From contig OY821519.1 of NCBI GenBank assembly GCA_963682025.1, positions 98,019,085-98,083,084 of the forward strand: DNA of 64,000 nucleotides. The letters are read 5' to 3'. The notes below the pieces were generated by a model. The model made no database searches. It was not told the origin of the DNA and saw nothing but the letters and a program-made list of their open reading frames with translations. Made by a program: the position numbers and the translations under genes. Below, in pieces: positions 27,674-60,176 of this stretch (position 1 is its first letter; every line of letters starts with the position of its first letter). This DNA comes from Cordilura impudica (Eukaryota; Arthropoda; Insecta; Diptera; Scathophagidae).

Positions 27674-28202
27674 TCGGGATGCGATAATTTTTTCTGTGTA
27701 GATAACCTTGACATGAGCTCGAAAAACGCAATAAAAAATTTTTTTTTCGTTTGGTTTTTTTTTTTTTTTTTTTTTTTAAATTTTAAAAATTTTTTTTTGG
27801 TTAATTTGTTTCGTCCGGCATAACTCGGGAACCACTAGCCCGATTTAATTGAATTAAATTGTAAAAAATTTAAAATTACAATTCCCTTAATCTGTTTATA
27901 TATTGTTTTCCTATACAAGCAACAGTTTCCAAGTTAAAAATGAATATATAAAGGAAAAAACTTATTTTTGCCTAAAAATTTAAATTTTTTTTTTTTTTAA
28001 AAATCCATAAAAAATCCCAAATGAAAAAAAATTTCAAATCTTATTACTTTTACGTAAAGATACATAACCTGTGAGCAAAATAAGAGAAAGATCATGAAAA
28101 TCGATGCACGCGTTTCGCTTTTATTCGCAATTGAGTAAAGGTATGAATTTAAAAAATTTGCTCGACATATGCACAACTTTGTCTATGGTAAGGTTTTTTC
28201 TT
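27674..28202 (+). repeat. Left terminal inverted repeat of G1
   Basis: Pairs with 29722-30251. It contains long T and A homopolymers and the segment GAAACGCGTGCATCG (in inverse) close to its inner end. Confidence 0.9.
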
Positions 28203-28296
28203 TTTTTTTATGATTCTCAGAATTAACAAAACGGAATAAACAAAGGGTTATTTAATTTTTATGATTGCGTAAGCAAAGTAATAAACGGTAATAAAT

Positions 28297-29556
28297 GTGC
28301 GTGAACAATTAAAAGGAAAAAAGGAAAGGGGACCACAAGTAGGAACCACATCAGAATGCGAGTCAACATATACATTGCATGGAGGTCAACGCTTATGTTC
28401 CCAAGCAGAACTGAACGATTGGGTTAGAGAATTGAAACTCTCCAAGGAAGATGCAGAGTTGCATGCATCGCGCATGAAACAGTTCGGTTTCTTGGCTCCT
28501 GGTGTGGTGACAACAATCTACAGGAAGCGTCATGAACCATACGCAAGGTACTACACAAAAAAAGACAACATCTGTTTTTGTAAGGACATTCCCGGATTAT
28601 TTGGTGAACTCGGGTACTCTTACGATCCAGGAGAGTGGCGTCTTTTCATCGACAGCAACAAGCAGAGCCTTAAAGCAATTTTACTGCACAACGGCAACAA
28701 GAAACCTTCGATTCCAATTGCTCATGCCGTTGACACCAAGGAAACATACGAAGTCATGGACAATCTACTAAAGTGCCTTAACTATGAGAAACACGATTGG
28801 AAAGTTTGTGCCGACCTTAAGGTTATCGGTATCCTTTGTGGATTACAAGGTGGATTCACAAAGTACTGTTGTTTTCTCTGCCTTTGGGACAGCCGCGATC
28901 GTCAACATCATTACACCAGGAGGAGTTGGACAGAAAGAGTTAACTTCATCCCCGGCAGCGACAACGTGAAATATACACCACTCATAAAAAAGGAAAATGT
29001 TTTTCTCCCACCTCTTCACATAAAGCTCGGACTCATAAAAAACTTCGTGATAGCTATCAACAAAGATGGCGAAGCGTTCGCCTATTTAAAAACCATTTTT
29101 CCTCACCTTTCATCGGCAAAGATTAAGGAAGGCGTTTTCGACGGTCCGCAAATTAAAAAGTTGTTGCAAGACCAACAGTTTGAACACATTTTATCACCAA
29201 ATGAAGCTGCAGCTTGGAACTCATTTCGGCAAATTGTTTCCGGATTTCTTGGAAACAACAAAAGCTCAAATTACAGAGAGATCGTCGAACAACTACTCCA
29301 AAATTATAAAAAAATTGGAGCAAATATGTCGCTTAAGATACATTTTCTACACTCGCACTTGGACTTCTTTCCGGACAACCTGGGCGATGTGAGTGACGAG
29401 CATGGTGAGCGTTTTCATCAGCAAGTGAAAGAAATTGAGCACCGATACCAAGGATTTTGGAACGAAGCTATGATGGGGGACTATATCTGGTTCCTAATAA
29501 GAGAAACAGACCCACAACAATATAAAAGAAAGACAAAAGCACATAATTATTTTTAA
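28297..29556 (+). CDS. Putative transposase of element G1 (DDE-like, unclassified)
   Basis: 419 uninterrupted codons, but the frame opens with GTG after in-frame stops and the first Met is near residue 60. A 5' exon or N-terminal zinc-ribbon part (present in the relic at 13301) is missing or unspliced. Candidate DDE-type features: WRLFIDSNKQSLKAILLHNG (first acidic residue on a strand), WKVCADLKV (second Asp), FTKYCCFLCLWDSR (paired cysteines), then a helical region PPLHIKLGLIKNFV...FLGNNKS..NYREIV, MSLKIHFLHSHLDFFP and SDEHGERFHQ (candidate Glu). Related uncharacterised proteins recur in insect and cnidarian genomes, as I recall. Its position between long TIRs as sole gene supports a transposase. 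Catalytic assignments are inference. Confidence 0.72.
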   Translation: MREQLKGKKERGPQVGTTSECESTYTLHGGQRLCSQAELNDWVRELKLSKEDAELHASRMKQFGFLAPGVVTTIYRKRHEPYARYYTKKDNICFCKDIPGLFGELGYSYDPGEWRLFIDSNKQSLKAILLHNGNKKPSIPIAHAVDTKETYEVMDNLLKCLNYEKHDWKVCADLKVIGILCGLQGGFTKYCCFLCLWDSRDRQHHYTRRSWTERVNFIPGSDNVKYTPLIKKENVFLPPLHIKLGLIKNFVIAINKDGEAFAYLKTIFPHLSSAKIKEGVFDGPQIKKLLQDQQFEHILSPNEAAAWNSFRQIVSGFLGNNKSSNYREIVEQLLQNYKKIGANMSLKIHFLHSHLDFFPDNLGDVSDEHGERFHQQVKEIEHRYQGFWNEAMMGDYIWFLIRETDPQQYKRKTKAHNYF

Positions 29557-29721
29557 TTTGAAGGTTTTTATTTTTGTGTTTAGATATTTTTTTTAAAACT
29601 TTTTTATAATTAATTAATGTTGATATCCTTAGGATAATTTCTTGTACATATATCGAATTGTTTTTTAATTTAAAGTCATATATTTTTGTCACCCAACAAA
29701 TTTTAATTTTTTTTGTAATAA

Positions 29722-30251
29722 AAAAGAAAAAACCTTACCATAGACAAAGTTGTGCATATGTCGAGCAAATTTTTTAAATTCATACCTTTACTCAATTGCG
29801 AATAAAAGCGAAACGCGTGCATCGATTTTCATGATCTTTCTCTTATTTTGCTCATAGGTTATGTATCTTTACGTAAAAGTAATAAGATTTGACATTTTTT
29901 TTCATTTGGGATTTTTTATGGATTTTTAAAAAAAAAAAAATTTAAATCTTTAGGCAAAAATAAGTTTTTTCCTTTATATATTCATTTTTAACTTGGAAAC
30001 TGTTGCTTGTATAGGAAAACAATATATAAACAGATTAAGGGAATTGTAATTTTAAATTTTTTACAATTTAATTCAATTAAATCGGGCTAGTGGTTCCCGA
30101 GTTATGCTGGACGAAACAAATTAACCAAAAAAAAATTTTTAAAATTTAAAAAAAAAAAAAAAAAAAAAAACCAAACGAAAAAAAAATTTTTTATTGCGTT
30201 TTTCGAGCTCATGTCAAGGTTATCTACACAGAAAAAATTATCGCATCCGGA
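29722..30251 (-). repeat. Right terminal inverted repeat of G1
   Basis: Inverse of 27674-28202. One terminal mismatch (TCCGG for TCGGG) and small run-length differences are visible. Confidence 0.9.
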
Positions 30252-30255
30252 GTAC

Positions 30256-32171
30256 ATGAAATTTTTTTCATTTTGTTGAGTAGTGATATCATTTGCCATT
30301 TTTTTGTTATGTTAGCGATTTTTGATTTTTGCGGTTTTTGATCTTTGTTTTATATCGATATTTGTTTTTCGCGATTTTCGGTGTTGGCAAATTGAGATTT
30401 TGTCGATTTTTGAATTTAGCGATTCCGCCCATATTTTCCAAGACTATCAAATTGGTAATTAATGTATTTGCCACAATTTTCAAGACTTCGCTTTCTTATT
30501 ACTTTACATTTTTTTTTGTATAGGGAGTGCCACGCTTACTAATCCTGTCCCGCCTTTTTTCCCACTACTCACATTAATAATAGATGACCTCAGACAAATT
30601 TTCAAAGCTCTCTTTGTTATAGTATTCGAGATATATGATATTCACTAATAACTTTGTGTGGGAGGTGCCACGCCCACTAAACATATCAAAAAAAAATGTA
30701 TAGGTTATAGTTACTTCCATATAGAAAATAAGACTGTATAAACACACATACATAAGTTGGTTTTTATATATATAGATAAAGTGGTATCCTACAGACAGAC
30801 AGACTTTTAGCGTTTATGTGGAAGATGGTGAATTATTTAAGCAATGCGTTTGTAATTGTCCAGAGAATTGACAACAAAAACATTAAGGAATTCAGGATAG
30901 TAATTCAATTCCTTGACAATTTAGAAGGGCGCACTCAGTGGACTTACTAGCTTAAGTGCTAGCTTAAGAAAGTCCATTGTAACTACCGTGGTTACAGTGG
31001 CTACCGAATTTATTGCCAATCGAATTACAATGGAGTTAATAAAGGAAATTCGGGGTTCGTTACAATAAAAATTCGGTGGTTTTAACTGTAAATGTTTGAA
31101 ACGGTTAGCTGCTATTAAATTTCTGTTACACTCTTTGGAAAAAAAAATTGTTTCTGTGTGTACGAGTAATGAGTGTTAGTCAGCCTTGCTTTCTCTATAA
31201 AAACCTAACCTTACTTCCAATTAAATTTTCAAAATTCATGAACATTTTAATTTCAACACTCCAAATCTGACGATATTTCGATGCTAAAAGATATTTAATA
31301 AAGTTCTGAATGGTCAATCCTCCAAAATTCCTATAATCAGTTCGTGATTAAGCATCATTTATTACATCACGAATTTAGACAATTTGCTGAAATCGGAACG
31401 TCCTACTGTTTTTGCTATCCAAAATTCAATACAGATGTTAACTGTTCGAGTTTAAAATATAAAAAAAAACCTTTTACTTTTAAGTATTTACACATCATTG
31501 AGTTCATGGTGTATTTCTTCTTTTTCTTAATCCCAAATTCCCAAAATTAGTGTCATCACTTTAAATTGATTTTTAATATTGCACTTCAAATACGAATAAG
31601 AAAGAAATGTTCAAAAACGTCTGATATAATCAAGTTGCATAAAATGCAATAAGAAGATCGTAAAATTAAGAAAAAAAAAACAATCGAAAAGTAACTGCAG
31701 TATTATCAAGATCACCAAATACGATTGAGTCATTTGGCAGCAATTTTTGAAGTGGTTGTTATGGTGGCACATCTTATTGGCATTTAAGTTGAATGACGGA
31801 AAAAGCAGCCAAAAATAAAATAAAACTCATGGCTCATCATTACTTAAATAAAGTTATCGCAAATTTCCCATCGACAGTTTCATCGTCAGACGATGCAACA
31901 ACGTGTCTGCGCACACAGAGTGAGAAAGAGAAAAACGACAAATATTTCGAATATTTTGCAAATATTTACAAGCTTAAAAGAAACATTAAATAAACAGTTT
32001 TATGAGCCAAGGATGTAAATGGTAAAATTTATGGTGTTGAATTACTTACACACAATTCTTCTTTTCCGAAAATGTTTTCAAATAACTTCAACAGTAGGCT
32101 AATAAAGACATGTTTAATGACCATTTACCAACAAAACAAAAGGAAAAAAAATACATGTAAAATGATATAAA
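30256..32171. other. Repeat-like, no recognisable gene
   Basis: GTGCCACGC(C/T)ACTAA occurs twice (near 30527 and 30667), with ATATATGATATTCAC; this is typical of fly transposon tails. An inverted repeat pairs CCATTGTAAC with GTTACAGTGG near 30973-31000. Short ORFs at 31344-31550 and 31793-31993 are unrecognised. Confidence 0.4.
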
Positions 32172-32795
32172 CAAGTAAGAGAATTATAGTTGGTCTAGAA
32201 CGACTCTGCGATATGCTATAACATGGTTTAGAATATTGGTATTAGGTTCAACAAATTGGATATAGCAAATAAGTATAAACTACCTCTGAGTGGAATTTTT
32301 ATTAATTTTTTTGCTTGCAGATTTGAAAAAGTACATATCGGGTCCTATAATTATATGGGAATTAGGTCTCAGAATGGACCGAGCCTGACCATATAAAAGT
32401 CACTTATTTTTTGCAAATACATATAGAAACCAAATTTGAGAAAAAAACTTTTTTTTTTTTTGTTTTTGATAGATTTAAGTGATGATCGGGAAGCAGCTTT
32501 ATATGGGGGCTATGATTCAAAATTATTTGGATACTGATTAATGGATGTATTAAGCACACACAAACCCAATTTACCCGATATCTATATGATAATTTAGATC
32601 TTATGGCAATTTAAGTTGATCTCAGAGGGGTTCATATTAGCGACCTGTAGTCTGATTACAAGGTTTACATGGACGGTATAATAAAAGATGGATAGGTATA
32701 ATAAAAGATGGATCTAGGTCAAATATTGTTGGTAGTTACAAACATCAGCACATACTCATTACATCCTAACCACATAGTGGTATAGGGTATAAAAA
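32172..32795 (+). repeat. Family-A interspersed repeat
   Basis: Starts ACAAGTAAGAGAATTATAGT and ends GTGGTATAGGGTATAAAAAT, with the GATGATCGGGAAGCAGC core. Part of the 3' half is tandemly stuttered (AAAGATGGAT twice). Confidence 0.75.
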
Positions 32796-33689
32796 TGCGA
32801 GTAACTACAATTGAGGCGAAGCAACTTTGTGAACACCAATGTGGAAACGTAAATCGCAGAAATTACATTTGTTATCATGGCTCCTCGTACATAAGTGTTA
32901 TGAGTAAGTAGCTAGATACACATAAGTATAACTAGGAGGGATTTAATTTTATTTTTTAGCTTTTTATAGAATTAGATTTCACTTCATCGTTTAACACCGA
33001 TATTCTTCAACAAGTTTTTTTTGCCCTTTTATAGAGTGGTTTTGCAGATAGCACAGTACAAAATTCAAAAGAAATAAATTTAAACTAGTTTTACGCCTCA
33101 TAGGCTATAATTAAGTTTGCACAATAACAATGATACACTTTGAAAATTGTAAGAGTAAAAGCAAAATGTCTTGTTTGTTCCACAATGGTTTCTATACGGT
33201 GCAAATACGGTGCTTCCAAATTCCTATTGAAACTCTATACTAGAGCTTCTACTCGAGCTGCTCGACTAGTAAATGACTAAATAATATATTTCATGTTTGA
33301 AAGCATCTAAGAAGATAAATATAATTATTTGTTATTGGAATCGTACAAGTTGCAGCAATATCATTCTTAAATTTTACTTTAATCGGACTGTCCTCCACTC
33401 GAAAAATGTCGACCACTTTCCATACAAAGGTACGAAAATATTCACTCCATAGATGTTTGACATCATTTTACAAAATATTAAATTTCAAAAATACATGGCA
33501 CAATTTTATATTTTTCCGAGTCAGTTATACTAATAGGTTACTGTCTGGTAAAAACTGTGCAGTAGGCTAACTACTAATTGAAAAAGGCCAGACACTTTCC
33601 ACTTATATATTAGATGTAAGTATATTTTCAAAAAACTTTTCGATAACAATTGGAAAACACTATAAGTATTCATATGTGCTATTTCGCAA
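32796..33689. other. No feature recognised
   Basis: AT-rich sequence without convincing reading frame or repeat family. It may contain the decayed 5' part of LINE C. Confidence 0.35.
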
Positions 33690-34101
33690 GATATTTTACA
33701 AAACACAGAGGATTTTACTATCGTAAATCACACTTGGTCAGATCACATGCCAATAAGGTTTGGATTGCAGGTAGTAACTATGGATGATAAAATTAAGAAA
33801 TTGAACTTAATCTCTAAATTATATTGGAAGGATAATACAAAAGATGAGTATCAGCGAAAACTGAATGTCAATTTAGAAAGATTGAGTTTAGTACACGTAG
33901 ATCCGAACCTCAAAACGCTATGTGATATAATAAAGAAATCTGGTAAACAAAAACGAAGTTTTGAACCAAAAGATAGTTGGTATAACTACAAGTGCAACGC
34001 TGCCAGAGAAAAATCTTTCAACTTTTTAAATATTTTTAGAAACACAAAATATTTATAAGATAAAGATAATTATCTAAAAGGTCAAAAAGAATATAAACAT
34101 A

Positions 34102-35385
34102 CGAGGGCGGATTGATATTGAAGCTACCTAGCGCTAGATGGCAGCACAAGCACAAAAACTTTTTTTTTAATTACGATCTGTCAAACGTCAGCAGTTAAAA
34201 TGTCACCCAAATTCATCGATTAGTCTATTTGTTGTAGTCGTTTGAAGTAAGCAACTTTTGGGTGTCTTGAAAAATGGAAAAAAGCGAATTTCGTGCAGTG
34301 ATTAAACACTATTATTTGAAAGGGAAAACGGCGAAAGAGACAAAAGAAAAGCTCGTTAAACATCACGGTGAGTCTGCTCCGTCAGCTTACATGGCAAAAT
34401 ATTGGATTGCTGAATTTAAACGCGGCCGAACAAGCACTACAACAATACCGTCAACAGGAAAGCCAAAAGAGGTGGTTACTGAAGAAAATATCAAGAAAAT
34501 CCTCGATATCGTTACGAATGATCGCCGAGTCAAGTTGCGTGAGATTTTTGAAATGGTAAACATATCATATGAACGTGTGATCAACATTTTGCATGAACAT
34601 TTGCATATGAAAAAGCTATCGGCAAGATGGGTGCCGCGTTTGCTCAGTGTCGAACAAAAACGAGTTCGACAGACCACTTCACAGCGGTGTTTGGACATGA
34701 TAAAGCGTAATCCTGTTGATTTTTGGCATCGGTTAATAACTGTTGATGAAACGTGGGTCCACCACTACACACCTGAAACCAAAAATCAATCGAAGCAATG
34801 GGTGGAAGCTGGTGAAAGTGCTCCGTAGAAGGCGAAGGCAGTGAAATCAGCTGGCAAAGTTATGGCCACTTTATTTTGGGATGCACACGGAATATTGCTC
34901 ATCGATTATCTTGAAAAAGGATCCACATTCACAGGAAAGTATTATCGTGCATTATTGGATCAATCGATTGATGCAATCAAGAAAAAACGACCACATTTAA
35001 AGAAGAAAAAAGTGATCTTTCTTCAAGACAACGCACCGGTTCACACAGCATTAGATACGATGCTAAAATTACGTGAAACACACTTCGAATGGGTTGATCG
35101 TCCACCTTATAGTCCAGATTTAGCTCCTAGTGACTTTTTGCTGTTTCCAAACTTGAAAAAATGGCTCGCAGGAAAAAGATTCATCTCAAACGATGAAGTG
35201 ATTACCGAAATTAATGCGTATTTTGATGGGTTCCCGAAATCATATTATTCAGATGGTATAAAAAAGTTGGAATATCGTCTTACTGTGTCGAAGTAAAAGG
35301 AGACTATGTTGAGAAATAAATGGTTTTTGAAAATAAAAAATGTTTTTTTTCCTACTTAGGTAGCTTCAATATCAATCCGCCCTCG
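34102..35385 (+). mobile_element. mariner element, full length
   Basis: 1284 bp, the canonical mariner size, with 29-bp perfect inverted repeats starting CGAGGGCGGATTGATATTG and flanked by TA (34100-34101, 35386-35387). It contains a single transposase frame with one stop. Confidence 0.95.
34274..35296 (+). pseudogene. mariner transposase (DD34D), one nonsense codon
   Basis: Cut-and-paste transposase. The N-terminal paired helix-turn-helix DNA-binding region (residues 1-115) is followed by WVPRLL, catalytic VDETW (first Asp), LQDNAPVH (second Asp) and YSPDLAPSDFLLFP (third Asp, 34 residues later), giving DD34D. The frame is open from ATG 34274 to TAA 35294-35296 except for TAG at 34826-34828. 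There the family usually has lysine, so a single AAG-to-TAG change inactivated it. Otherwise length and motifs are complete. Confidence 0.93.
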
Positions 35386-36132
35386 TATATGCAAAGAAAG
35401 CAAACACAACAGCTGGAAAAAAACATAAATGACATACAAGATAGTAAACAGTGGAGATTTGCAAAGGAAATTCGAAATCATAACTATAAAATATGTTCAC
35501 TTATATCTGCGATATCTTTTAAAACTTATTTTGATGAACTATTAAACCCACAACAAAACACAGTTGAGTTTCAACACGCACCTTTACTTAATTTCGATTC
35601 TTTTTGGATTGCCCAATAACGATGATAGAACTGAAAAATATACTAAGAAATGTAAAAGTAAATAAAGTTCCTGGTGAAGACCGTGTGCCATACGAATCGT
35701 AAATGCAACCGAAAATTTTCTGCAATAGCTTTTGCAAATATATAGTAAAATATTTAAAACTAGCCAAATTGGTGATTCCTTTTCAAGGACTATAATCTTT
35801 CTAATTCATAAAATGGGAGATGTAATCCAATTACAGGGGTATATCTTTCATGAATTCTGTTGTTAAAATAATGATGGGTATTCTCAATGAACGTTTATTA
35901 ACTGGGTGGAATGCAACAAAATAATGACAGAGTATCAGGCAAGCTTTCGCAGAAATTATTCAACAGCTGACACCATCTATAATCTTTCAGCTATAGTTAG
36001 TATCAAACTAGCAGAAATATATGCATTATTCGTTGATTTTAAAGCAGCATTTGATAAAGTTTCAAGAAGTGCATTAATATACAAACTTTTTACGAAAGGG
36101 ATTTCATATAAATTTGTCAGACTTATTGAAGG

Positions 36133-37436
36133 TATTTTTTAGCTATTATCTTTTTGGCAACACTGGTTTAAACAGCTGACGCACGTTTCGTGTTTTGTTT
36201 CATTGTCAAACATCTTCAGTTTGGTGTATAATTTAACCATGAATCGTCTTACAAACGAACAACGCTTGCAAGTTATTGAATTTTATTATCAAAATGCGTG
36301 CTCTGTTAAGAAAGTTCATCGCGCGTTTCTTCCATTTTATGGTCAGTTTTATCGACCCACTGAAGCGGCTATTCGGGCTATTGTGACTAAATTTCGCACC
36401 AAATTTACATTGTTGGACATTAAACCACCAACACGCTTACGTAAAGTGCGAACTGAAGAAAATATCGCAGCTGTATCGGCCAGTGTTAATGATGACCATC
36501 AATTATCGATTCGTCGCCGTTCGCAGCAATTGAGCCTCTGTTACTCAACAACGTGGAAAATTTTGCGGAAGGATTTAGGTGTGAAGCCTTTCAAAATACA
36601 GCTGGTGCAAGAATTGAAGCCGAACGACCTACCGCAACGTAGAATTTTTGGTGAATGGGCTCTTGGAAAGTTGGCCGAAGATCCAGTTTTTTACCGAAAA
36701 ATTGTGTTCAGCGACGAAGCTCATTTTTGGCTCAATGGGTACGTAAATAAGCAGAATTGTCGATTTTGGAGTGAATATCAGCCAGAAGCATTGGAAGAGC
36801 TACCAATGCATCCAGAAAAAGTCACAGTTTGGTGCGGTTTATGGGCTGGTGGCATCATTGGACCGTACTTCTTCAAAGATGATGCGTTACGTAACTGTGA
36901 ATGGTGAGCGCTACCGAGAGATGATATCCAACTTTTTTTGCCCAAAATGCAAGAGCTTGACTTGCATGACATGTGGATTCAACAAGACGGTGCCATATGC
37001 CACACAGCACGCGCAACAATGGACTTATTGAGAGGCGATTTCGGTGAACATTTTATTTCACGTTCGGGACAGGTCAATTGGCCGCCTAGATCGTGCGATT
37101 TAACGCCTTTAGACTATTTTTTGTGGGGCTATGTTAAAGCTCATGTCTATACAGACAATGCCACTTCAATTGACGCATTGGAAGACAACATTGAAGCATT
37201 TATTCGTGAGATACCGGCCGAAATGTTGGAAAAAGTATGCCAAAATTGGACTAAGCGGATGGACCATTTGAGGCGCAGTCACGGTCAACATTTGCACGAA
37301 ATAATCTTCGATAGTACGGTAATTATACGGTAATTATACCGTACTATCGATTCAAATAAAGATTTCATGCATTTTTCTGAATTTTATGGGTTTTTTTTTT
37401 GGAAAACTTTCCTATAGCTCTTAAAAATCACCCTTT
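36133..37436 (+). mobile_element. DD41D (rosa-like) mariner element
   Basis: Right terminus reversed reads AGGGTGATTTTTAAGAGCTA; the left end (GGTATTTTTTAGCTATTATC) is a degraded match. It sits between LINE C RT fragments (RLIEG and NDIRSG). Exact ends and TA duplication are uncertain to a few bases. Confidence 0.8.
36239..37333 (+). pseudogene. mariner-family transposase (DD41D), one frameshift
   Basis: ATG at 36239 (MNRLTNEQRLQVIEFYY). Helix-turn-helix DNA-binding part to about residue 120, then FSDEAHFWLNGYVNKQN (first Asp), WIQQDGAICHTA (second) and CDLTPLDYFLWG, with the last Asp 41 residues after the second: DD41D, as in the rosa group. The frame breaks near 36890 (ALR|NVTVNGERYREM continues in another frame); no other lesion is seen. 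The end is LHEIIFDS as in many insect copies. Confidence 0.92.
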
Positions 37437-37529
37437 ATAATGATATTAGGTCAGGTAAGGATATTATGTCTGACTACTTCGAGACTAAGTCCGGATTGAA
37501 ACAAGGTTGTTTGGTGTCGCCATTTGCGC

Positions 37530-40066: not shown

Positions 40067-40440
40067 ATTTGCGCTATATACATATTAATGATTTAAACGA
40101 TTACTTAGAAGGTGGACTTTTTGTCGATGATCTGTATATACGTTTATTATTATAATGTACTGGCAAGAATGATACTTAACATAGAAAAATACTGTAATTT
40201 ATGGAACTCAGAAGTTAATTTAAGTAAATCTGAAATTTTAGTCTTTCGTGACGGTGGTCGACTCGCACGAAGATAAAAGTGGTATTTTAACTGAGATCCG
40301 ATAAAAATATCGTTAGAACATAACTGCTTAGGAGTAGTGTTAACAACTAAACTATCATTTAACAACCATGTAGAAAAATCCATCGAAAAATATTAAAAAT
40401 GTTTAAAAACTCCCCCGTTAAAAATGCTTTATTACAAAAC

Positions 40441-43500: not shown

Positions 43501-43884
43501 GCCAATAAAATTAGTTTCTAATAGAGTCCGACTTTGGCTTGGAGTAAGAACTGTACCATAAGGCACGCGAAAAAAATAGTGAATAAAATCGCATTTTTTA
43601 TAAATAAATCGTGAAGATCGTGTTCAGTTTATATTACGACACTTTTAATGTTCTGTATACATTTTTTGCTCGAGCTAGGTTGAACAATTTTCGTCAAAGA
43701 CGAACTTAAATCTTTGACTTGTTTTAATCATTGGTTGATGTAAGTAATTAAATTTTCACCACGCCATAAACCGTTAACAGTTTTATATTGTAATGAAATT
43801 GCTCTAAATATACAACATTCTTTTTCTCTAAGTGTGTGCTTAGACTCTACGTCAACCATATTTATCTATTGTCTAATTGTATCT
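43501..43884 (+). repeat. Direct repeat, left copy (384 bp)
   Basis: From GCCAATAAAATTAGTTTCTA to GTCTAATTGTATCT. Repeated at 44846-45200 with few substitutions and one ~30-bp deletion. No terminal TG...CA or other LTR sign. Confidence 0.88.
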
Positions 43885-43908
43885 AATATATAACATATTA
43901 ATATTAAT

Positions 43909-44810
43909 ATATTATATATTATATATTATATATTATATATTATATATTATATATTATATATTATATATTATATATTATATATTATATATTATATATTATA
44001 TATTATATATTATATATTATATATTATATATTATATATTATATATTATATATTATATATTATATATTATATATTATATATTATATATTATATATTATATA
44101 TTATATATTATATATTATATATTATATATTATATATTATATATTATATATTATATATTATATATTATATATTATATATTATATATTATATATTATATATT
44201 ATATATTATATATTATATATTATATATTATATATTATATATTATATATTATATATTATATATTATATATTATATATTATATATTATATATTATATATTAT
44301 ATATTATATATTATATATTATATATTATATATTATATATTATATATTATATATTATATATTATATATTATATATTATATATTATATATTATATATTATAT
44401 ATTATATATTATATATTATATATTATATATTATATATTATATATTATATATTATATATTATATATTATATATTATATATTATATATTATATATTATATAT
44501 TATATATTATATATTATATATTATATATTATATATTATATATTATATATTATATATTATATATTATATATTATATATTATATATTATATATTATATATTA
44601 TATATTATATATTATATATTATATATTATATATTATATATTATATATTATATATTATATATTATATATTATATATTATATATTATATATTATATATTATA
44701 TATTATATATTATATATTATATATTATATATTATATATTATATATTATATATTATATATTATATATTATATATTATATATTATATATTATATATTATATA
44801 TTATATATTA
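43909..44810 (+). repeat. (TATATTA)n satellite, ~129 perfect copies
   Basis: About 900 bp of the same 7-mer without a visible interruption. The 329-codon ORF reading IYYILYI repeats is an artefact of a 7-bp unit translating as a 21-bp period. Confidence 0.97.
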
Positions 44811-44845
44811 ACATTTTTTTATTAATTTATTTATTTTTTTTTTTT

Positions 44846-45200
44846 GCCAATAAAATTAGTTTCTAATAGAGTCCGACTTTGGCTTGGAGTAACAACTGTA
44901 CCATAAGCCACGCGAAAAAAATATTGAATAAAGTCATATTTTTTATAAATAAATCGTGAAGATAGTGTTCAGTTTATTTTACAACTCGAGCCAGGTTGAA
45001 CAATTTTCGTCAAAGACGAACTTAAATCTTTGACTTGTTTTAATCATTGGTTGATGTAAGTAATGAAATTTTCACCACGCCATAAACCGTTAACAGTTTT
45101 ATATTGTAATGAAATTGCTTTAAATATACAACAATCTTTTTCTCTAAGTGTGTGCTTATACTCTACGTCAACCATATTTATCTGTTGTCTAATTGTATCT
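44846..45200 (+). repeat. Direct repeat, right copy (355 bp)
   Basis: Second copy of 43501-43884, period 1345 bp, lacking the CACTTTTAATGTTCTGTATAC stretch. Together with the satellite between them, this looks like a tandem duplication. Confidence 0.88.
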
Positions 45201-45689: not shown

Positions 45690-45835
45690 TTTCCGAAGGC
45701 AGAACATTAATAATAATGCCACTCAAATTTGATTTATGTTTTTTTTCTATATCTAATTAGTTGGACATAAACGCATGGTATAGGGTATCATATATTAGGT
45801 CTAGACCGGCTTTAATTTTCTTACTTGTTTCAATT
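45690..45835 (-). repeat. Family-A repeat fragment
   Basis: Minus-strand 5' terminus: ACAAGTAAGAAAATTAAAGC, a degraded palindrome (GGTCTAGACC intact), ATACCCTATACCATGCG, then the AATTTGAGTGGCATT segment. Confidence 0.7.
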
Positions 45836-46761: not shown

Positions 46762-46939
46762 AGATTGCAAAGTTAAATTCGCACGGCAACATTTTCCAGG
46801 AAATTTCTTGAAAAACGCTATTGTTACTCATTAGTGCATTTAAGGTTATTTGCAGAATTTTTACCATTGTCGTCAAACGGATGCTACTCGGTCTAATCTT
46901 ATAATACATCATTTCTAAGACATGATTTTGTTCTATCAA

Positions 46940-47450: not shown

Positions 47451-47514
47451 TCCCAAATTGAGTTGCAGAAATATGCAAACAATTTACGCTTGCTGGCGTA
47501 CACTTTGCTTTTCA

Positions 47515-47700
47515 AATAACCTCACAAAAAGATGTCCGGAAGGGTCAGATTTGGAGATCTGGATGGCCAGTCAATGTCGCTGGTACAAGCACTCATTTTT
47601 GGTCATGCAATGCATCCGTTGTGCATTCTCCGTTCCCCAAAAGTGGCAATTTTGCTTGTTAACGCTGTCACAGACTCTTAAATGGGCCTCCAACAAACAG
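47515..47700 (-). pseudogene. mariner-like transposase scrap
   Basis: Minus strand reads SVNKQNCHFWGTENAQ, then HWLAIQISKSDPSGHLF. VNKQN-FW is the segment after the first catalytic Asp in DD37/41D mariners (compare 36745). Only about 60 codons; both sides are lost. Confidence 0.55.
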
Positions 47701-49941: not shown

Positions 49942-50861
49942 AATAAAACCCAAAAACATGCTATAAATAGTTCTTGTTCAAATTTTGTTTACGCTATATC
50001 CCGATTACAAGAGGTAACCAACAAAAACGGTTAGATTTGAAATCAGCTTACCCTAACTATCCAAAATTGGTTAACAGATCACTTAGAGTTTTCATGTATG
50101 ATAAATTTACAAAGAATTTTATTTAATAAAAAAAATAAATGAAAGCAAAATATTGATTTTTGATTTCTCCTAATAAAGGATTACACTCCTTAAACCAAAA
50201 ATTTAATTTTAAAGTTATATATTCCAAATAGAATTCATTGTTACAAACCTCTGTCTTAAACAAGTACACATACGTGTGAGGTTTGGTTGGTTTTACATGC
50301 ATATTTTCTGGCAAGTAAAACAATTTATGAGTGGCTACATCTAATTTACATATGTCGCTTACAACAACTATCTGACGAATACGATAATTTAAGTGTACAA
50401 AGGTTTAATGATGGCTTTGACTGGCGAAGGCTCATGACTTAGCAAAGTTATAAAAAAGTAAATAACTTTAGAATTGACATTGTAAACTGATACATGAGCA
50501 TGCAAATGCTATAAGCTGGGTGCGAATATTCTTCACATGATTTGAGTTTGTAAAGTGTCCTGTCCCTGCTTTAATTTGTGAACATATTTGAAAAGTTTGA
50601 ACAGAAATCTTGAATATGAAAACGATCACTCTCTGGTTCCATATCATTTTCTGAATGTAAACTCATCACGTTTTATGCCAAGTTCTGAATTAAATATGCA
50701 AATTCTTTCTTTTCTGTATGTTGCCGTTCTTATTATGTCAACAGTTGATCGAATTACTGTTCAATTAGTATACCAGAATACACTTGTTAGAAAAAGTGAC
50801 CGTATATTTGAAGATGAAAATTTAAATATTAATAAAAAAAAACTTATTTTATTTATTTATA
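49942..50861. other. No feature recognised
   Basis: A plus ORF of 119 codons (50588-50947) reaches into the Helitron at 50862 and has no recognisable domain. Otherwise AT-rich non-coding. Confidence 0.35.
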
Positions 50862-51313
50862 CTAGAGGACCCCTACTGCTCCGCAGCATTATATTATATT
50901 ATATTAATTTTTATAATATAATACCAAAATTTGCCAAGAGAAGTTAACGTACAGTAATGCCAAAATATGCCAAGAGAAGTTAACGTACAGTAAAAGTAAA
51001 GTTGATTGTCCACGCATAACTTTCCTCAAACCCAACGAATTTGCCAAGAGAAGTTAACGTACAGTAATGCCAAAAAATATGCCAAGATAAGTTAACGTAC
51101 AGTAAAAGTAAAGTTGATTCTCCACGCATAACTTTCCTCAAACCCAACGAATTTAATAGCTCAAAAGAAGGAGCTTGATCCACTGAGTGTTCTTAGACCT
51201 ATGTCAACAGCCTACGTTAATTAGAACTCTAGTTATAGAGGTTTGAGAGAAGAAAAATATTGAAAAAAATCTTGAATGCAAAGTTTATTCATAAATTCTT
51301 TTAATATATAAGA
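50862..51313 (-). mobile_element. Non-autonomous Helitron, family C copy 2
   Basis: Minus strand begins TCTTATATATTAAAAGAATT at 51313 after A. It ends with hairpin CTGCGGAGCAG, then TAGGGGTCCTCTAG and T. Inside are about four copies of a ~33-bp unit with GAAGTTAACGTACAGTA, partly interleaved with AAAGTTGATT...ACGCATAACTTTCCTCAAAC repeats. Confidence 0.75.
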
Positions 51314-51314
51314 T

Positions 51315-51486
51315 TAATTACAATACAAAGTAAATTTATATTCTAATTTGGGTCCCTGGATAAGCCGGGTGACAAAGACCATTTGGGTGGTTTTTGCAGC
51401 GACAGACCAAAGCCTCTGGTGGGAATCGAACCCACAACCCCCGCATGATAGGAGAGCACGCTACCTACTCACCTACCGGGGCGCTT
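51315..51486 (-). mobile_element. tRNA-derived SINE
   Basis: The minus-strand head AGCGCCCCGGTAGGTGAGTA has an A-box-like TAGGTGAGTAGG. About 40 nt later is a perfect B box, GGTTCGATTCC, in the context GTGGGTTCGATTCCCACC. The acceptor stem does not close and there is no CCA, so it is not a tRNA gene. A non-tRNA tail (GGCTTTGGTCTGTCGCTGC...) follows and ends next to the Helitron boundary. Confidence 0.72.
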
Positions 51487-52129
51487 AAAAAAAACTTATT
51501 GAATTAAAATTATTTTGAATTACAAATTGTTTACCCTTGACAGATTGGGAATTTTACTTGTTTTTCAAAGAACTTAAGCAACGTTTCAACTTCAAATGAA
51601 GTATGACAACTATTAGTGCCAGCAAAATTACTTATTTTTCTATACGCGCCTCCAAACTAACTGAGGTCGAAACGGAATTGTGTTGGCGTTAGTAAAACAA
51701 AATCCCAGAATAACTGCTTCCCAAGTTAGTTCTAAAAATATCCTTGAAGATACCGTTCGTAAAATATAAAAAAAAGCCGACTATCATGGTCGTGTATCAC
51801 ATAGAAAGCCATTCATTTCCGATGTCAATAGACACAAGTACCCACATGGGTTTATCGTTTACATTAATATCTGAACTTATTGCACTTTTTATAACAAATG
51901 TAAGCAAAATATTTTAAAAGATAAACAATTAGATAAACTTAATACTAAATTATTACAACAAACACACTGAATTTTTTAACATTTTTTAGAGGCGGCTTCA
52001 TATTTTTGGATATATTTTGGCACAGCCATGGCCGATTTACCCCCATTGTCAACAACAACATGCTCGAGATAATGGCAAACATTATTATCATAATTTTGTG
52101 AATGAATGTGATTTTACCAGCTAGGCGGA
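51487..52129. other. No feature recognised
   Basis: AT-rich; no gene-like frame or repeat family seen on either strand. Confidence 0.35.
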
Positions 52130-52265
52130 CAGACAGGGGTCAGACGAACATCGCTATATCGACTCGAGTTATTATAAAGAGCAGAAATATATGTATATAG
52201 TTCATGGGGTCGTATTACAAATGGAATAACAAACTGATATATACCCTCCACACAGTGGTGTGGTA
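52130..52265 (+). repeat. Family-D repeat fragment
   Basis: ATCGCTATATCGACTCGAG, ATGGGGTCGTATTACAAATG and the end ATATACCCTCCACACAGTGG. Confidence 0.6.
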
Positions 52266-52339
52266 CAAGTGATTAAAGGTAGTTAAAGGCTCAGATGGTT
52301 AAACCACTACTTCCATGACTTAAAAAGAGGATATATTTT

Positions 52340-52510
52340 TGCAAAAAAGACACAGCAGAGAAGGAGGAATTATGATACGGGATGCCACATCGTGCAAAGG
52401 GGCTATCGATTTAGTTTTCGAATCTGCAAGAATAACTGGAGCTTCGTACAATGGAATATTGAAATATTCACCAGACCTAAATGACAACTTTAAAGGACGT
52501 TATAAGGGAA
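52340..52510 (+). pseudogene. Tc1-like transposase fragment
   Basis: REGGIMIRDATSCKGAIDLVFESARITGASYNGILKYS matches the GGSIMVWGC-S-KG-G-LVFIEG core of Tc1-type transposases, just after the second catalytic Asp region. Only about 55 codons remain; flanking domains are absent. Confidence 0.65.
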
Positions 52511-52523
52511 TCCTGGAACTGCT

Positions 52524-52626
52524 TCTAGTGCCTCAAGTTTGCTAAAGTCTCGAAAAATTTTATATTTTTTTTAACGCTAGAAAATATTAAAAATTTTTGA
52601 CATTTTAGCAATTTTGAGGCACTAGA
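52524..52626. mobile_element. 103-bp hairpin MITE
   Basis: The ends TCTAGTGCCTCAA and TTGAGGCACTAGA are perfect inverses, and the arms continue with GCTAAA and AAAAATTTT. It is almost wholly palindromic and sits at the end of the Tc1 scrap. Confidence 0.7.
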
Positions 52627-53514
52627 TACAGTTTTTTCGGGTTAGTTTGTTTTACACGTTTTTTATCCTATTCTATAGCTACAATTGTGCCGAGAACAAG
52701 AAAACAAAATTCAAATTGGTTATCGAGATATAGCCGTGAGAATAGTTGCATATTCTTCAGAAAAATCAAGTTTAAACCAAAATATACATGAGGCCATAAA
52801 ATCCGAACAGCAGCTAAACTAGCAAACCCTAAATGGGGTTTTCTTACTTTCGATAATTACTTCTAAAACACCACATGAGGAGGACTTTGAATTTTATGTG
52901 TTGCACAGTGTTATCAGCCAAACAAAAATATTTAACAAATATTGTATAAATTTCTATTGCATTTCCTGATCCTATGAAAAAAACAATAAATATTAAATAT
53001 ACAAAATAAATAAGAAACCAATTAAAATATAAACTTTCTTATCGCCTTCTTTGGTTTTGTAGATGTAATCCTGAAATTTTGTTGACCATTACTTCAAAAA
53101 GCTTAGTAGTCGGAACATGTACGGCAGCCCAGAACTCCTTTTACCATAATTAGTATATCAGTTAAGTCTTCGAGTAACTCCGATCTAGAGGTTATTATGA
53201 TCTAACGGATGATGCGATCTAAAGTCAAGTCCAAATTTTCTTTATTTCCTAAATAATAAATGATATTGAAATGCCCGTTTAAGTTTTGCGGCCCTGAGTG
53301 CCAACGACAAGGCTTATTTTCTAGATGATCATGATTTCCCTGCATAACTATCATTTCCAGATTTAAGTAGTTATTAGTTTTTGGACATATAATAGAATTA
53401 TTTATTATACCCCATATTATCATAGATATATTTACCAAATTTGCTCTTTAATTGTGCACCCCTGTTATACAGGAAATGGAAAATCAATAAATCAGCAGTC
53501 CCTCCAACACTATT
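52627..53514. other. No feature recognised
   Basis: Small ORFs only. A minus-strand frame (53202-53438) contains a GNHDH stretch but no recognisable domain. Confidence 0.35.
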
Positions 53515-53775
53515 TTTAGTCATAGTACCCATATAAAGCTGCTTTCCGATCTTCACTTAAATCCATCAAAAGATAAAAAAATCATTTCTAAATATTTTTG
53601 AGAAATATAAGTGGTATTACTTAGAAGTTTGGTTAAGATCGGTCCGTTTTTTGACATAGTCTCCAGATATAAATAGTATTCTATGTGCAATTTTTCATAT
53701 CTGCAGGCAATAAATTCATACCAATGCCACTGAAATTTGGTTTATGCTAATTTTCTGTATCCATTTATCGCCATA
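53515..53775 (-). repeat. Family-A repeat fragment
   Basis: Minus-strand family-A 5' half: CATAGTACCCATATAAAGCTGC, TCTTCACTTAAATCCATCAAA, TTTTTCATATCTGCAGGCAA. Confidence 0.65.
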
Positions 53776-53961
53776 TTATAGGTATTCCAAAACTTTTTGA
53801 GACAATAATAATAATAAACTATCGCACGAAATGTCATCAATTCTTTAACCAGATCAACGTGGGTTTTGTAAAAGATGACTACTAACCTAATGGCATTGAC
53901 GTCCTATATCAACTCTGTAATACACACAGACTTAAGCTTTTGATAAAGTTATTCATAATCT

Positions 53962-54893
53962 GCATAGGTTTCTATGATAAGGACCGTTCTACAGGGATAT
54001 ACTTCCGTCTACCGGACCACAACTCTGTCTTTCAGGCTAAATTGGTCGCGATAACGGAATGTATTAGGTCTATAAACGCACGGGATTCCCCAATTCCCGA
54101 ATACGTGAAAATATTTACGGATATTCTAGCGGCCATCAAAGCGATATCCGCGGACAAAACTAGATCAAGGACTATCCTCGAGTGTAAGGAAGAGATTGCA
54201 AACTTCTCCGGAAGAGGCAGACTTGAAATCGTTTGGATCCCAGGATACAGTGGTATAATGGGAAACGAAATTGCTAACGAACTGGCCAGGAAGGGTTCTT
54301 TCCTGAAAAGAGTCAATTTGGAAAACCCAATACTTTTCAATTCTCTCAAATTGGAACTGGAAGACTGGGCGACCAGTTCGCATGTATCAATTTGGGAGGA
54401 GACTGCCGTGGGTAAGGTTACAAAGATACTATGGGGTACTCCCAACACTACGAAAACTAAGGGAAAACCTTAATCTGAGTAGGGGAAATCTTAGTAGGAT
54501 AATTGGCATCCTCACTGGACACTCTGAGCTGAGGGCTCACCTATACCGTGTAGGACGGGCGGAATCGGCCACTTGTAGAGCTTGCGGAGAGGATGACGAA
54601 ACCCTAGAACACTACCTCTGTTACTGTCCTGCATTAGCGAGAACAAGGGTCAGATATCTATCCAACGACATCCTACCAGGCCTGATGGGTCTTAGGGGGG
54701 ATAAGCTGGAAAACACTAAGGAAATTTGCTGATGAATCCGAATTTCTAAGTTAGTAGAGGGGTAGATAACCAGATGAACGTAGAAATGTAGAGCGCACAA
54801 CAAGCCGACCTACTGGCTCAGGTGTATATCCGGACACAACGGATATGAGCTATATATTTACATAGCTCCTCTTATCAACCTAACCTAACCTAA
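53962..54893 (+). mobile_element. LINE E: 5'-truncated copy, RNase H and zinc-knuckle end
   Basis: 932 bp with 9-bp target duplication TCATAATCT (53953-53961, 54894-54902). RNase H domain: IYFRLPDHNSVFQAKLVAI, VKIFTDILAAIKAI, EIVWIPGYSGIMGNEIANELA. After a frameshift near 54450 comes the C-terminal knuckle CRACGEDDETLEHYLCYC. RNase H plus this knuckle places it with I/R1/LOA-type LINEs. The 3' end carries CCTAACCTAACCTAA. Confidence 0.85.
54878..54893 (+). repeat. (CCTAA)3 tail of LINE E
   Basis: AACCTAACCTAACCTAA directly precedes the target duplication, so the short repeat is the element's 3' terminus rather than a telomeric array. Confidence 0.8.
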
Positions 54894-55455
54894 TCATAAT
54901 CTATTGATAGGGAAGATTGATATTATTGGAATATCCGACGACTTCCTAAAATGTCATTAAAAAATCGTAAACATTGTGTAATTTTCAACAACTCTAAATA
55001 GAAATTTATGGATATTACTTCCGATGATCCTCAAGGAAGTGATCTTGGACATCTCTTATTCTTCCTGGTTATAAATAATATTCCAAAGTTTATCCAATAT
55101 AGTAATATTCTTATGTATGCCGACAATGAAGACAGTTTAAAGGCTGCTGTAATGTCAATTTAATGAAATTAGATATTCGCCATTTATGAACGAATATTTC
55201 ATTAATGATACAAAACTAAATTCGACTCATTCATTGATTTGGGATTTCAAAAGAATAAAGGAATAAATGGAATTAAATTTCCCACCACATCATAATTGTT
55301 TGGCTCTAATAAAACTTAAAATTTTATAAAGTTGAGGGATCATTTTTAACAGAAGATTTTTACTCAATTTAGGTCATGGTAAAATTGAATCTGAATGCCT
55401 TCTTGGAAAAAATGTGTAAATTTTCCTAATAAATAGATAATTTCGATCCATGTAT

Positions 55456-55660
55456 TTTTATACCCTCCACACCACTGTGCAGAAGGTATATGGGTATATC
55501 AGTCCGTCATTCCGTTTGTAACGCAAAAAAAATAAATTTGCGATATCATAAGGAATATAAACTTGATCCTTATAACAATTCGAGTTGATATAGTGATTTT
55601 CGTCTGCCGGTCTTTCTGTTGAAATCACGTTCATTCAGAAAATAAACCATTTATTTACCT
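55456..55660 (-). repeat. Family-D repeat
   Basis: On the plus strand: ATACCCTCCACACCACTGTG, then TCATTCCGTTTGTAACGC and AATTCGAGTTGATATAGTGA, mirroring 52130-52265. Confidence 0.65.
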
Positions 55661-55715
55661 TGTTAAACTTAAGAAAATTATTAATTATTTTCTATTTGTA
55701 CAAATATAAAAATAA

Positions 55716-56425
55716 ACAAGTAAGAAAATTATTGTCGGTCTAGACCGAATATACCATATCCTATACCATGCGTTCAGAGGTCCAACTAATTAGATATAGA
55801 AAATAAGTCAAATTTGAGTAGAATTGTTATTTATTTTTTCGCCTTCGGATATGAAAACGTTCATATCGGATGCTATATTTATATGGAATCTAGGTCGAAA
55901 AATGGTCCAATCCTGACCATATTTGGTAAGCTCACTTATTTTTGCAAAAACATATACAATCCAAATTTGAGAAATCTCTGAGCAATATTTTTGTTTTTTG
56001 ATAGATTTAAGTGAATATCGGGAAGCAGCTTTATATGCGGCCCACGACTAAGAATTGTCGTATAGGGTTTATACATACACAGACCTAATTTGACCAAGAT
56101 CTATATGATATGTTGGATATTATGGCAATTTAAGTCGTTCTCATAGGGGTCATATGTATGGGGACTAGGTCTGAACATAAACCGATTTTCACCAATGTCA
56201 ATAGTGTTCATCCTATGGCCGATATAAGTTTATATATTAAATTCTAGCAATTTATATTCATATTTGCGTCCTGTAGTTCGATTACAGGTTTACATGGGCA
56301 CAAAGTCGGATGGACGGTCATCGCTAAATCGACTTAGAAAGTGATTCTGGGTCGATCGGTATAGGTCAAATATTTTGGTAGTTACAAACATCAGCACAAA
56401 GTCATTATACCACAACCACTAGGGC
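55716..56425 (+). repeat. Family-A interspersed repeat, near full length
   Basis: Starts ACAAGTAAGAAAATTATTGT with GGTCTAGACCGA, has ATATCGGGAAGCAGCTTTAT, GATGGACGGTCATCGC and ends CATTATACCACAACCACTAG. The terminal GGTATAGGGTATAAA is lost. Confidence 0.8.
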
Positions 56426-57250
56426 GGCACTTAATAAAAAAGTGTTCAAACTCTCGGTCTCACCCCCTAGAAATATGCGAATAGCAAAAAACTGAGAAAT
56501 ACAAAGTTTGGGATCAATCAAAAAAAAATTAAGAGGTGCCTCAACGCGACTGAATATTTCAAGTTTATATGGGGAAAATATGACTTTTTTCAGATTTTAC
56601 GAAAATTTCGTTCGACACTTTAACTTTTTCGACAAATTGTTATATGAATCGATATCAGTACTCAATTATCTTTTCAAAAAGCTATATAACTTCATAATCG
56701 AATAGAAACTCGCCAAGAAATAACAAATGCCCCAGACCGCTTTTGTGCCAAAAAAAACTCTAGGTCATGGTATGTGATTAACATTTTTCAACTTTAACAA
56801 ATTGATTAAAGCCATAATATATTTTTGGTTTTTATACCTATAAGTACTCAGATATGAAGTATTGTTTTATTACCACGTTGTTAACCTATTGCGAAATGAG
56901 ACCAAAGATGGAATATTTTTTTGATAAAATTTTGAAAACTCCTTTTTTAAGTTTTAAAAAATTTTCTTAAACAAAATTTCAAAAAATGGATCTGCCACTT
57001 TAAAGTTTTGTTAAATATATGTTAGATATTAACTGAGTGAATTTTTTGTAGTAAATTCGTCTGCTAGAATTTTTTTTACAAAGAATTTCTTTTTTTTTGC
57101 AGATTTCAAGAAAAATTAATTTTTTGTGAAATATTCAGTGAATGTACTCTTTCTAAATACTTTGTATCAAAAATTTGTCAGTTTTCTACTTATAAATGTT
57201 ATGTTTTATCTTAATACGCTAGGGTTTCTGAAAAAAATAATATGACTACA
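56426..57250. other. No feature recognised
   Basis: AT-rich with several TTTTT(C/G)A tracts. The 65-codon ORF at 56508 is unrecognised. Confidence 0.35.
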
Positions 57251-57780
57251 TTAACCCTTTTGGACTTGGGGTCGCATATGACCCCAAGCTAATGAATGAC
57301 AATTATTCAAAAAATTCAAATATTTTGAAAGTGCTGTTGAATTTTTAGATGTGACGCTTAAAATATAATAAGCAAATGTGCAAGTCTTCCATGCTAAAAA
57401 TTAAAAATAAATCGAACAACGTTAACCCATTCCTTGCCGAGGCCAAAATTTCAATTTTGGCATATTTAAAAAAATTAATTGTTCTAGTAAACTAAGGGGT
57501 TAGTATGGGTTGGGAAATAAAATTGTGCTATATTTTACCGATTTTTCTGATTTGATATTTATGATGATTTTACAATTTAATGTCATTAACCCATTTGGAC
57601 TTGGCGCCACAAATGACCCCAAGCTAGTATAGCACAATTAAGTCAAAAAATTCAAATATTTTACAAATACTTCTGAATTTTGGATCATTTTAACCCTAGG
57701 AGCACATAAGGGTAAGTTTTCGTAATATATAGCACAATTTAAATTCCCAACCCATAGTAAAGGTTTCATCTAGTTTGCTA
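57251..57780. repeat. TTAACCC-bounded repeat cluster
   Basis: TTAACCC occurs at about 57253, 57422, 57588 and 57690. The block TTTGGACTTGG(G/C)G(T/C)C...ATGACCCCAAGCTA is present twice (57262, 57597), each followed by TCAAAAAATTCAAATATTTT. TTAA followed by CCC recalls piggyBac-type ends, but no complete element can be delimited. Confidence 0.5.
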
Positions 57781-58182
57781 GAACAAAAAGTTCATTATGG
57801 CTTTTAATTTGTTGAAATTTTGCACTTTGTACCGCATTTCTGGGTCATCTATAGATTCAACTTTTCCTTCATAATCAAATTGGGCCGCAATTTTTCTCCT
57901 CTTGCCTGTTTTTGTACAGTGGCAATAATGTTGGGGTTTTCCATATCTAATTTAGAAGCAGGATCGTTGGCGTCTACAAAATACCCATGAAATTTTACAT
58001 AATTTTTCACAGACATAAAAACATCAGTACATGTAAACAAATCAAATGAAACACTTACTGACATTTCCCAAATCTCTCATATAATTAAAGCTTTGAATAA
58101 TAAGAAATCTCCCGGAATTGATGGCATTACAAATACTGTCTAAATACACTGCCTCATAAAGGCATTAAGTTCATAACAGTAC

Positions 58183-60176
58183 ACGGTTCGCTTAAAGGTC
58201 GAATAGGTTCGCCAAAACCTTCGACCATTTCTGAAAACGGGGATTGGTTGGGAATCATTTATGTATTTAAACGTCGAAAACCGCAAAATCCTAACAGATC
58301 GACTTTTCAAGTTACCATCAAAGTAAGCTGCCGTGTTTTGACAATAGCACACATGGCCATTTGAAGCATCCATCACTGTTCGAATGCTCTTCCCCGGGAA
58401 TGTTATGACAATTTAAACATGTTCAATGGATGAGTTACCTCTGGACATAGAGGAGAATACTTATTGGACCAAGTTTTCATACTACTTACTTACTAGAAGT
58501 CCGGGAAACGGGTTAAAATCCCGGTGCAAACTTTTATGTTGTATTTTTTTTATTGTGCTTCCTTGGAATTGGAGTATTTGGAAGTTGAAGATATAATACC
58601 ATTCTTGGATTTAGAAATGAAAATTTATTTGTACATTTCAATTACATAATTAAATAAATTCATTAGTTTATCACAAAATATAGAAAGGCATATTTGAAAA
58701 GAATTATAGAATCTTATTATTTACTATAAATGGGTTGAGGAGAATTGAGCCACCGCTTTTTTCAAATTATTCATATATGGCTCATTTTCCATGGTGTTTA
58801 TCTTGTACCTATTCCAAAATGAAAGGAACTCACGATGGATCGATTCTCCCGCCTGCTCTGACCAATATCCTAAAGCTTCATTATTCTCAAAAAAATAGAT
58901 ACAGTCTTCGAGGTGTTCCAATAGTACATGGATTTTTAGAGTAACTGTTACATTTTGTAATGCTTTGTAGTTTTTTCTAAGCTCTGCTATGTACTTTTGG
59001 AGACAAGTGTTTGAGCCATTTTTTCTTGTTCCAAAACAACATTTCACAAGATTATCCATAGCTTTGAATGTATGGACATATGGACTAACGGAAAAAATCC
59101 CTACCTTACCATATATTTCCCAATCGAACAATATATCTGCTTCTTCGAGAAGTTTCCTGCATGCATTGCCCTCAAAAATGTCACCATGGTAAGTCTTTGA
59201 AACCAGGTTCAATTTTTTTGGCCAAATGAGTGCAGTTTCACGACCCACCAAAGGAAGAAGCCCATCCCAAAACAAATGGTTTACAAATCCCTGCAATATA
59301 TGCAAATCTGGTATCACGCATTTTTGGAGTACAAATATATTGCAATCTTCGATGAAAAGTGGAGGGTTAATTATACTGTTATGGTTTTTGGCATTTTGCT
59401 TTTTCCCTCCTCCAATCTGAGCGAAATTCATGTTATCGTTATTAAATGTCCATAGGTCTTTAAACTTGAAATTAGATTAGAATTATCAGTTTCACTGGTA
59501 TTATCGGCATTTTTGGCTTGAAATAAATCTTTTCCACTTCTCAACTCTTGGAGATATAAAACAATAGGGGCAAGGGTAACTTGAAGTGGATGTTTGTTGG
59601 CCGTTAGCGAGGAGAATAATTTTGAAATCGGACACAAATTTGAACGGAATGCTGTTCAACTCAGTTATCTCGAACAATAATTGGATATATGCTTCATTAA
59701 CAATGTGCCAAGAAAGACTTTAATTTCCGTTAATTTTGTGAGTGACAAGTGGTCAAATGGTTTGACTATTGTCAAATGAAAATGCTGCCAGATCAAGAAT
59801 TTGAAGAAAAAACGCTAAAACCGCAGAAAAAAATCGTTAAATTCTAAAAAAAACCCGAATACTTGTAAATTGTACAATAAAAACTACAACACGGAAACTC
59901 TACGAATGGAAAGGATACAACATGCTAAATCTAGAAATAGAGAAAATTAAAAGCAACAACAGAAAATATGTAAACAGAAAAAAAGTAACAAAACAAATGT
60001 ATTAAAGCGAAAAATTTTACATTTGAAAAATTAAAGTGCTTGTATCTTCAAAAGCCGATCTGCTAGGATTTTGCGGTTTTCGACGTTTAAATACATAAAT
60101 GATTCCCAACCAATCCCCATTTTCAGAAATGGTCGAAGGTTTTGGTGAACCTATTCGACCTTTAAGCGAACCGTGA
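58183..60176 (-). mobile_element. DNA transposon G2, GTAC target duplication
   Basis: 1994 bp bounded by GTAC at 58179-58182 and 60177-60180. TIRs of about 130 bp (58183-58310 and 60048-60176) share ACGGTTCGCTTAAAGGTCGA and run with only a few mismatches; the right end has two extra bases (TC) that the left has lost. It carries the broken gene 58724-59637. The TIRs differ from those of G1, but the duplication and protein type are the same. Confidence 0.87.
58724..59637 (-). pseudogene. C-terminal part of G2 transposase-like protein
   Basis: Two minus-strand frames joined by a frameshift near 59430: 59637-59428 (LKTYGHL at its end) and 59431-58724 (235 aa from ATG). Features aligned with the G1 protein: IPDLHILQGFVNHLF (PPLHIKLGLIKNFV), EGNACRKLLEEADILFDW, CCFGTRKNGSN...YIAELRKNYKAL, VTLKIHVLLEHLEDCIYFF (MSLKIHFLHSHLDFFP) and SEQAGESIHREFLSFW (SDEHGERFHQQ). 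The part carrying the first candidate catalytic Asp and the cysteine pair is absent, so this copy is a deletion derivative. Confidence 0.7.

Follow-up and report, generated by a model that had tools for sequence, protein, structure and literature searches.

A 64,000-nucleotide stretch of the genome of the scathophagid fly Cordilura impudica (assembly GCA_963682025.1, contig OY821519.1, forward-strand positions 98,019,085 to 98,083,084), referred to here as the window, carries three DNA transposons, G1, G2, and G3. With a probability of about 0.95, G1 and G3 belong to Chapaev3 and G2 to the Chapaev elements with 4-bp target duplications, all cut-and-paste transposons of the Transib/RAG1 lineage. 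The evidence consists of the element ends, the target duplications, the empty site of G2, the homology of the proteins, a D-D-E triad with C(2)C, LH, and H(4)H motifs, and a RAG1-like predicted fold, with membership in Chapaev and Chapaev3 assigned by published hallmarks because the named Chapaev sequences were compared by description only. Zhang et al. (2014, PMC4079192) give these hallmarks as duplications of 3 to 4 bp, element ends of 5'-CAC and GTG-3', and the C(2)C, LH, and H(4)H motifs, and all Chapaev3 elements examined there have TWA (W, A or T) duplications between A and T. G1 agrees with all of these points, and G2 with the 4-bp form of the Chapaev description.

An earlier note on this DNA had read G1 and G2 as a transposon group of their own, with the palindrome GTAC as the target duplication made by the enzyme; that false lead is removed here and a known group put in its place. 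G1 and G2 are of a known kind, the boundaries first given to them were wrong, and the interest of the system is in how young and intact G1 is, rather than in a new target duplication.

Ends and target duplications of G1

Copies were taken from the window's own genome (1.49 Gb in 855 contigs). Querying it with the G1 open reading frame (ORF), with the best 40 of 934 candidates scored, returned 40 near-identical copies, the window's included; 28 of the 40 were fetched and both ends were found in 26, with L020 and L032 left out as no left end was found in them. Based on the 26 copies, G1 is an internally deleted Chapaev3-type copy on the + strand at 27650..30285, starting with CACTA and ending with TAGTG as do all 26 (the right end of L032 reads TAGTA). 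Its inverted-repeat arms, aligned at 27668-28210 and 29716-30257, extend over 543 bp with 98.7% identity in the window copy and, alongside the arms of G2 (134 bp, 95.5% identity), bear out the earlier description of both elements as DNA transposons with inverted repeats.

The GTAC motifs previously taken as the G1 target duplication are internal to the element, at 27670-27673 on the left (kept in 25 of the 26 copies) and 30252-30255 on the right (26 of 26). The boundaries are placed at 27650 and 30285 because homology passes both motifs, reaching outward to CACTAGTCAACAG (left) and TTGAGTAGTG (right), and because 3-bp duplications sit directly outside, ATA at 27647-27649 and 30286-30288 in the window. 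An exact 3-bp duplication flanks 25 of the 26 copies (14 TAA, 9 TTA, one TTT, and the window's ATA), TWA accounting for 23, and the flanks of the remaining copy, L018, are mismatched (TAA/TAG). No copy has flanks matching over 4 bp (0/26) and none has a duplication longer than 3 bp. The duplication is preceded by A in 23 copies and followed by T in all 26. Cross-pairing the flanks of different copies as a control gave 3-bp matches in 41% of pairs, compared to the 25 of 26 observed, the control being high because the target is so constrained.

Two G1 copies on C2 (L019 and L020, ~176.40-176.41 Mb) are ~6.9 kb apart and have an identical right flank, suggestive of a local duplication in which the element was included.

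Phase of the G2 duplication

The G2 search (best 40 of 100 candidates scored, 46 matches) was followed by the examination of 28 loci, with the C-terminal-side end found in 25 and both ends found in six. G2 lies on the - strand at 58182..60175 as an internally deleted Chapaev-type copy, CACGG...CCGTG, with the 134-bp arms at both ends and the duplication AGTA at 58178-58181 and 60176-60179. The ends constant among copies are CACGGTTC...GAACCGTG, and the C-terminal-side end reads CGTG in 23 of 25 copies. An exact 4-bp duplication is present in four of the six copies with both ends: AGTA (window), TCTT, CCAA, and AACT on the fetched strand, with TCTT and CCAA reading AAGA and TTGG in the orientation of the transposase. 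The other two copies match at three of four bases (L011) or at none (L042). The flank at the C-terminal-side end has only a weak bias, with T first in 17/25 and A fourth in 16/25.

As had been claimed, removing G2 and one copy of the four bases restores a long interspersed nuclear element (LINE); six of six aligned LINE relatives run across the junction without an insert, with the caveat that each of them carries one extra base ~14 bp downstream and that the AGTA of the window is AGTG in four. This empty site supports a 4-bp duplication and cannot fix its phase alone, which the other genomic copies set to AGTA. The duplication proposed for G2 in the earlier note therefore keeps its length and its clean empty site, while its sequence becomes AGTA in a shifted phase rather than GTAC. 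The TC reported as lost at one end of G2 was an artefact of the old phase, gone once the copies set the phase.

For a group duplicating GTAC it can be said that both window stretches, as first delimited, are flanked by GTAC and that the G2 empty site, taken alone, is equally compatible with it. However, GTAC lies within G1 in nearly every copy, no G1 copy has a 4-bp duplication, and in the phase of the earlier note GTAC is found in only 3 of 25 G2 copies, the window's own among them, with TCTT, CCAA, and AACT as the other exact duplications. The supposed shared target preference resolves into 3 bp, mostly TWA, for G1 and 4 bp of varied sequence for G2. The flanks of other genomic copies, named beforehand as the test of the idea, are not GTAC and rule out the new group, its pattern having arisen from mis-set boundaries; the chance of such an enzyme is vanishingly small. 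The earlier observation is partly confirmed and its interpretation partly supported.

Transposase genes and predicted fold

Full-length G1 copies are 3.3-3.4 kb and have a predicted gene of 558 aa in total, composed of a 73-aa exon 1 with CxxC pairs and a second exon of 485 aa, separated by a GT-AG intron of 58 bp, with splice sites predicted from the sequence only. The 558-aa frame is intact in 21 of the 26 copies, including all 21 that are full length; the other five (window, L004, L019, L031, and L034) keep both ends and have lost exon 1 or its start, L019 and L004 being alike in length at 2.9 kb. Compared to the full-length copy L003, a 753-bp stretch that includes exon 1 and the intron is missing from the window copy, the junction lying at 28333..28338. 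It retains a transposase core of 406 residues and a stop (28336..29556, + strand), supported by a 68-row alignment, a structure model, and a fold match, and used for residue numbering throughout. In the alignment and the model, the D-D-E residues are D106 (28651-28653), D160 (28813-28815), and E358 (29407-29409), and the other conserved positions are C179, C182, H228, H336, and H341; the triad and the C(2)C, LH, and H(4)H motifs are conserved in 68 of 68 rows, H336 in 67.

A fold search with the G1 model returned RAG1 and HzTransib as the best matches (HzTransib at 14% identity), and the core can confidently be assigned a RAG1-like predicted fold. A first model, built from 10 poorly aligned rows, had a predicted local distance difference test (pLDDT) score of 41.9 and was discarded. 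Sequence searches of solved structures found nothing relevant, whether the query was G1 by itself, a three-row alignment, or the 68-row profile, the profile finding no Transib or RAG chain, and scans of Pfam and NCBIfam named no transposase. For a possible N-terminal zinc domain in G1, Pfam gave RAG1_imp_bd below the cut-off in 1 of 68 rows and zf-AD in 4 of 68, and exon 1 has the CxxC pairs.

The window copy of G2 is without the N-terminal part of its transposase; the C-terminal part, identified from the ORF and protein comparison, is 250 aa long (58724..59476, - strand) and contains LH, H(4)H, and the last E. These are found in the window ORF and in its relatives, and the consensus of the relatives also has a CPYC pair and the candidate aspartates. 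Three of the four longer G2 copies span 3.2-3.3 kb between their ends, and all four copies read at full length have broken frames, with the candidate aspartates and the CPYC pair present. The distant relationship of the two transposases noted earlier holds, the proteins being homologous by BLASTP (E 4e-7) and by profile-profile comparison (probability 98.3%, E 1.9e-14). Being internally deleted, the G1 and G2 copies of the window could move only with an enzyme made elsewhere.

Classification and proposed mechanism

The CACTA ends and 3-bp duplication of G1 would suit an EnSpm/CACTA element. Kojima (2025, PMC12730594) uses CAC..GTG ends with 3-bp duplications as EnSpm-consistent and describes a clade, made up of EnSpm, Mirage, Chapaev, Transib, and others, whose members have C(2)C and H(3-4)H in common with RAG1, so that these motifs are general to the clade. 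Chapaev3 is nevertheless reported to have the TWA target flanked by A and T and the two-exon gene of ~560 aa that G1 has, and G1 is homologous to G2, a 4-bp duplicator. EnSpm transposases have a Tnp2-type domain and are longer proteins; no Pfam family was matched by G1 or G2 at E <= 10, so no Tnp2-type domain was seen in G1, and an EnSpm origin appears very unlikely.

Transib elements duplicate 5 bp of target, whereas none of the 26 G1 copies has a duplication longer than 3 bp and that of G2 is 4 bp. The low identity between G1 and HzTransib when aligned by fold and the lack of a Transib or RAG sequence match for the 68-row profile also argue against G1 as a member of Transib proper, which, despite RAG1 and HzTransib being the best fold matches, is scarcely credible. 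Also on the side of Transib, Kapitonov and Koonin (2015, PMC4411706) place Transib, TransibSU, Chapaev, and Chapaev3 in a single superfamily as its four clades and describe an N-terminal Chapa zinc domain for it. The earlier note had left room for a described superfamily with the same duplication; the elements fit the described Chapaev/Chapaev3 group, which is without a GTAC duplication, and Sola and Ginger, mentioned in that note, are not needed.

As a Chapaev/Chapaev3 system, the transposase would bind the inverted repeats and the D-D-E RNase H-like core would cut at the 5'-CAC and GTG-3' ends. The freed 3' ends would then be joined to the target with a stagger of 3 bp for G1 and G3 (target mostly A-TWA-T) and of 4 bp, with a weak TNNA bias, for G2. 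We infer the order of the cuts, the use of metal, and the formation of a hairpin on the flanking DNA, which would parallel the RAG and Transib reactions.

Age and possible activity of G1

Among the 21 full-length G1 copies, mean pairwise divergence is 0.25% and the maximum is 0.44%, in a sample that leans young because the copies were the top search matches. In a protein search, the best 102 of 21454 first-look candidates scored were all G1-like (99-100%) with no stop in the aligned core, and the 34-base left end of G1 has 291 exact matches in the genome compared to 0 for the reversed control. That G1 went through a recent burst is well supported.

Among named relatives of the G1 protein, the nearest come from a bee (71%) and a beetle (69%); a protein 99% identical to it is present on 22 short contigs that are possibly from the same species. 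Single-protein scans of viral and prokaryote collections, which catch close relatives only, found no relatives. G1 may be a Chapaev3 still moving in C. impudica after a very recent entry, perhaps by horizontal transfer, a possibility we hold at somewhat less than even odds. If so, G1 would provide an intact, naturally occurring transposase with the RAG1 fold and a 3-bp stagger, on which cleavage chemistry could be measured, and an active G1 could be used to ask how RAG1-fold enzymes set staggers of 3, 4, or 5 bp.

G3 and neighboring sequence

G3, absent from the earlier note, is an older, decayed Chapaev3-type element on the + strand at 13077..15145 (CACTA...TAGTG) with the duplication TAA at 13074-13076 and 15146-15148. 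Its ends were placed with six further genome copies, from 40 among the matches listed; of five copies with both ends, three have an exact TAA and two have no match (L062 and L063). The gene is broken into pieces, one with the first aspartate region at 13520..14128 (+ strand, ORF 13517-14131) and others at 14361-14738 and 14696-14956. The ORF belongs to the G1 protein family at 53% identity (aligned piece 13520-14128 or 14361-14738), the others at 40-52%. The other listed copies are only 87-92% identical to the window G3 over the 431 bases searched, making G3 much older than G1.

Immediately after G3, a long tract of simple repeats resembling CATTTTTCATTTTCCA occupies 15240-17328. The window also has mariner-like frames at 34271-35296, with a Mos1-type helix-turn-helix domain, and at 36143-36907, with DUF4817, a close relative of the latter being nested in a G3 copy (L065:1486-2664). 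A tandem repeat of nearly 1 kb at 43877-44866 stays open whichever of the three forward frames is read.

Comparison with known systems

The main value of the system lies in G1 as a Chapaev3 family, since many of its copies are nearly identical and apparently intact and its fold is confidently predicted to be RAG1-like. Judged from the listings and a few passages, no paper in the literature searched, which mostly excludes subscription papers, looked like a report of experiments on a Chapaev transposase. The RAG1 core and HzTransib differ from G1 in sequence, at 11-14% identity, and the G1 duplication is 3 bp, not 5 bp. Compared by description, G2 resembles the Chapaev elements with 4-bp duplications in its CAC/GTG ends, duplication length, and motifs, and differs in the broken frames of its four copies read at full length.

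Chapaev3 is already known from the blow fly Calliphora vicina; by description, Chapaev3-1_CV and Chapaev3-2_CV are fly Chapaev3 like G1, with fragments of only up to 1075 bp listed (PMC3630058). By description, G1 also resembles the Chapaev3 families Merrow and Garfield, with which it shares CAC/GTG ends, a TWA duplication that A precedes and T follows, and the C(2)C, LH, and H(4)H motifs. In PMC4079192, full-length Merrow and Garfield also have two exons, of 78+484 aa and 78+478 aa, respectively, compared to 73+485 aa for G1, whereas G1 differs in its arms of ~543 bp and its full length of 3.3-3.4 kb, compared to their 2.3-2.5 kb.

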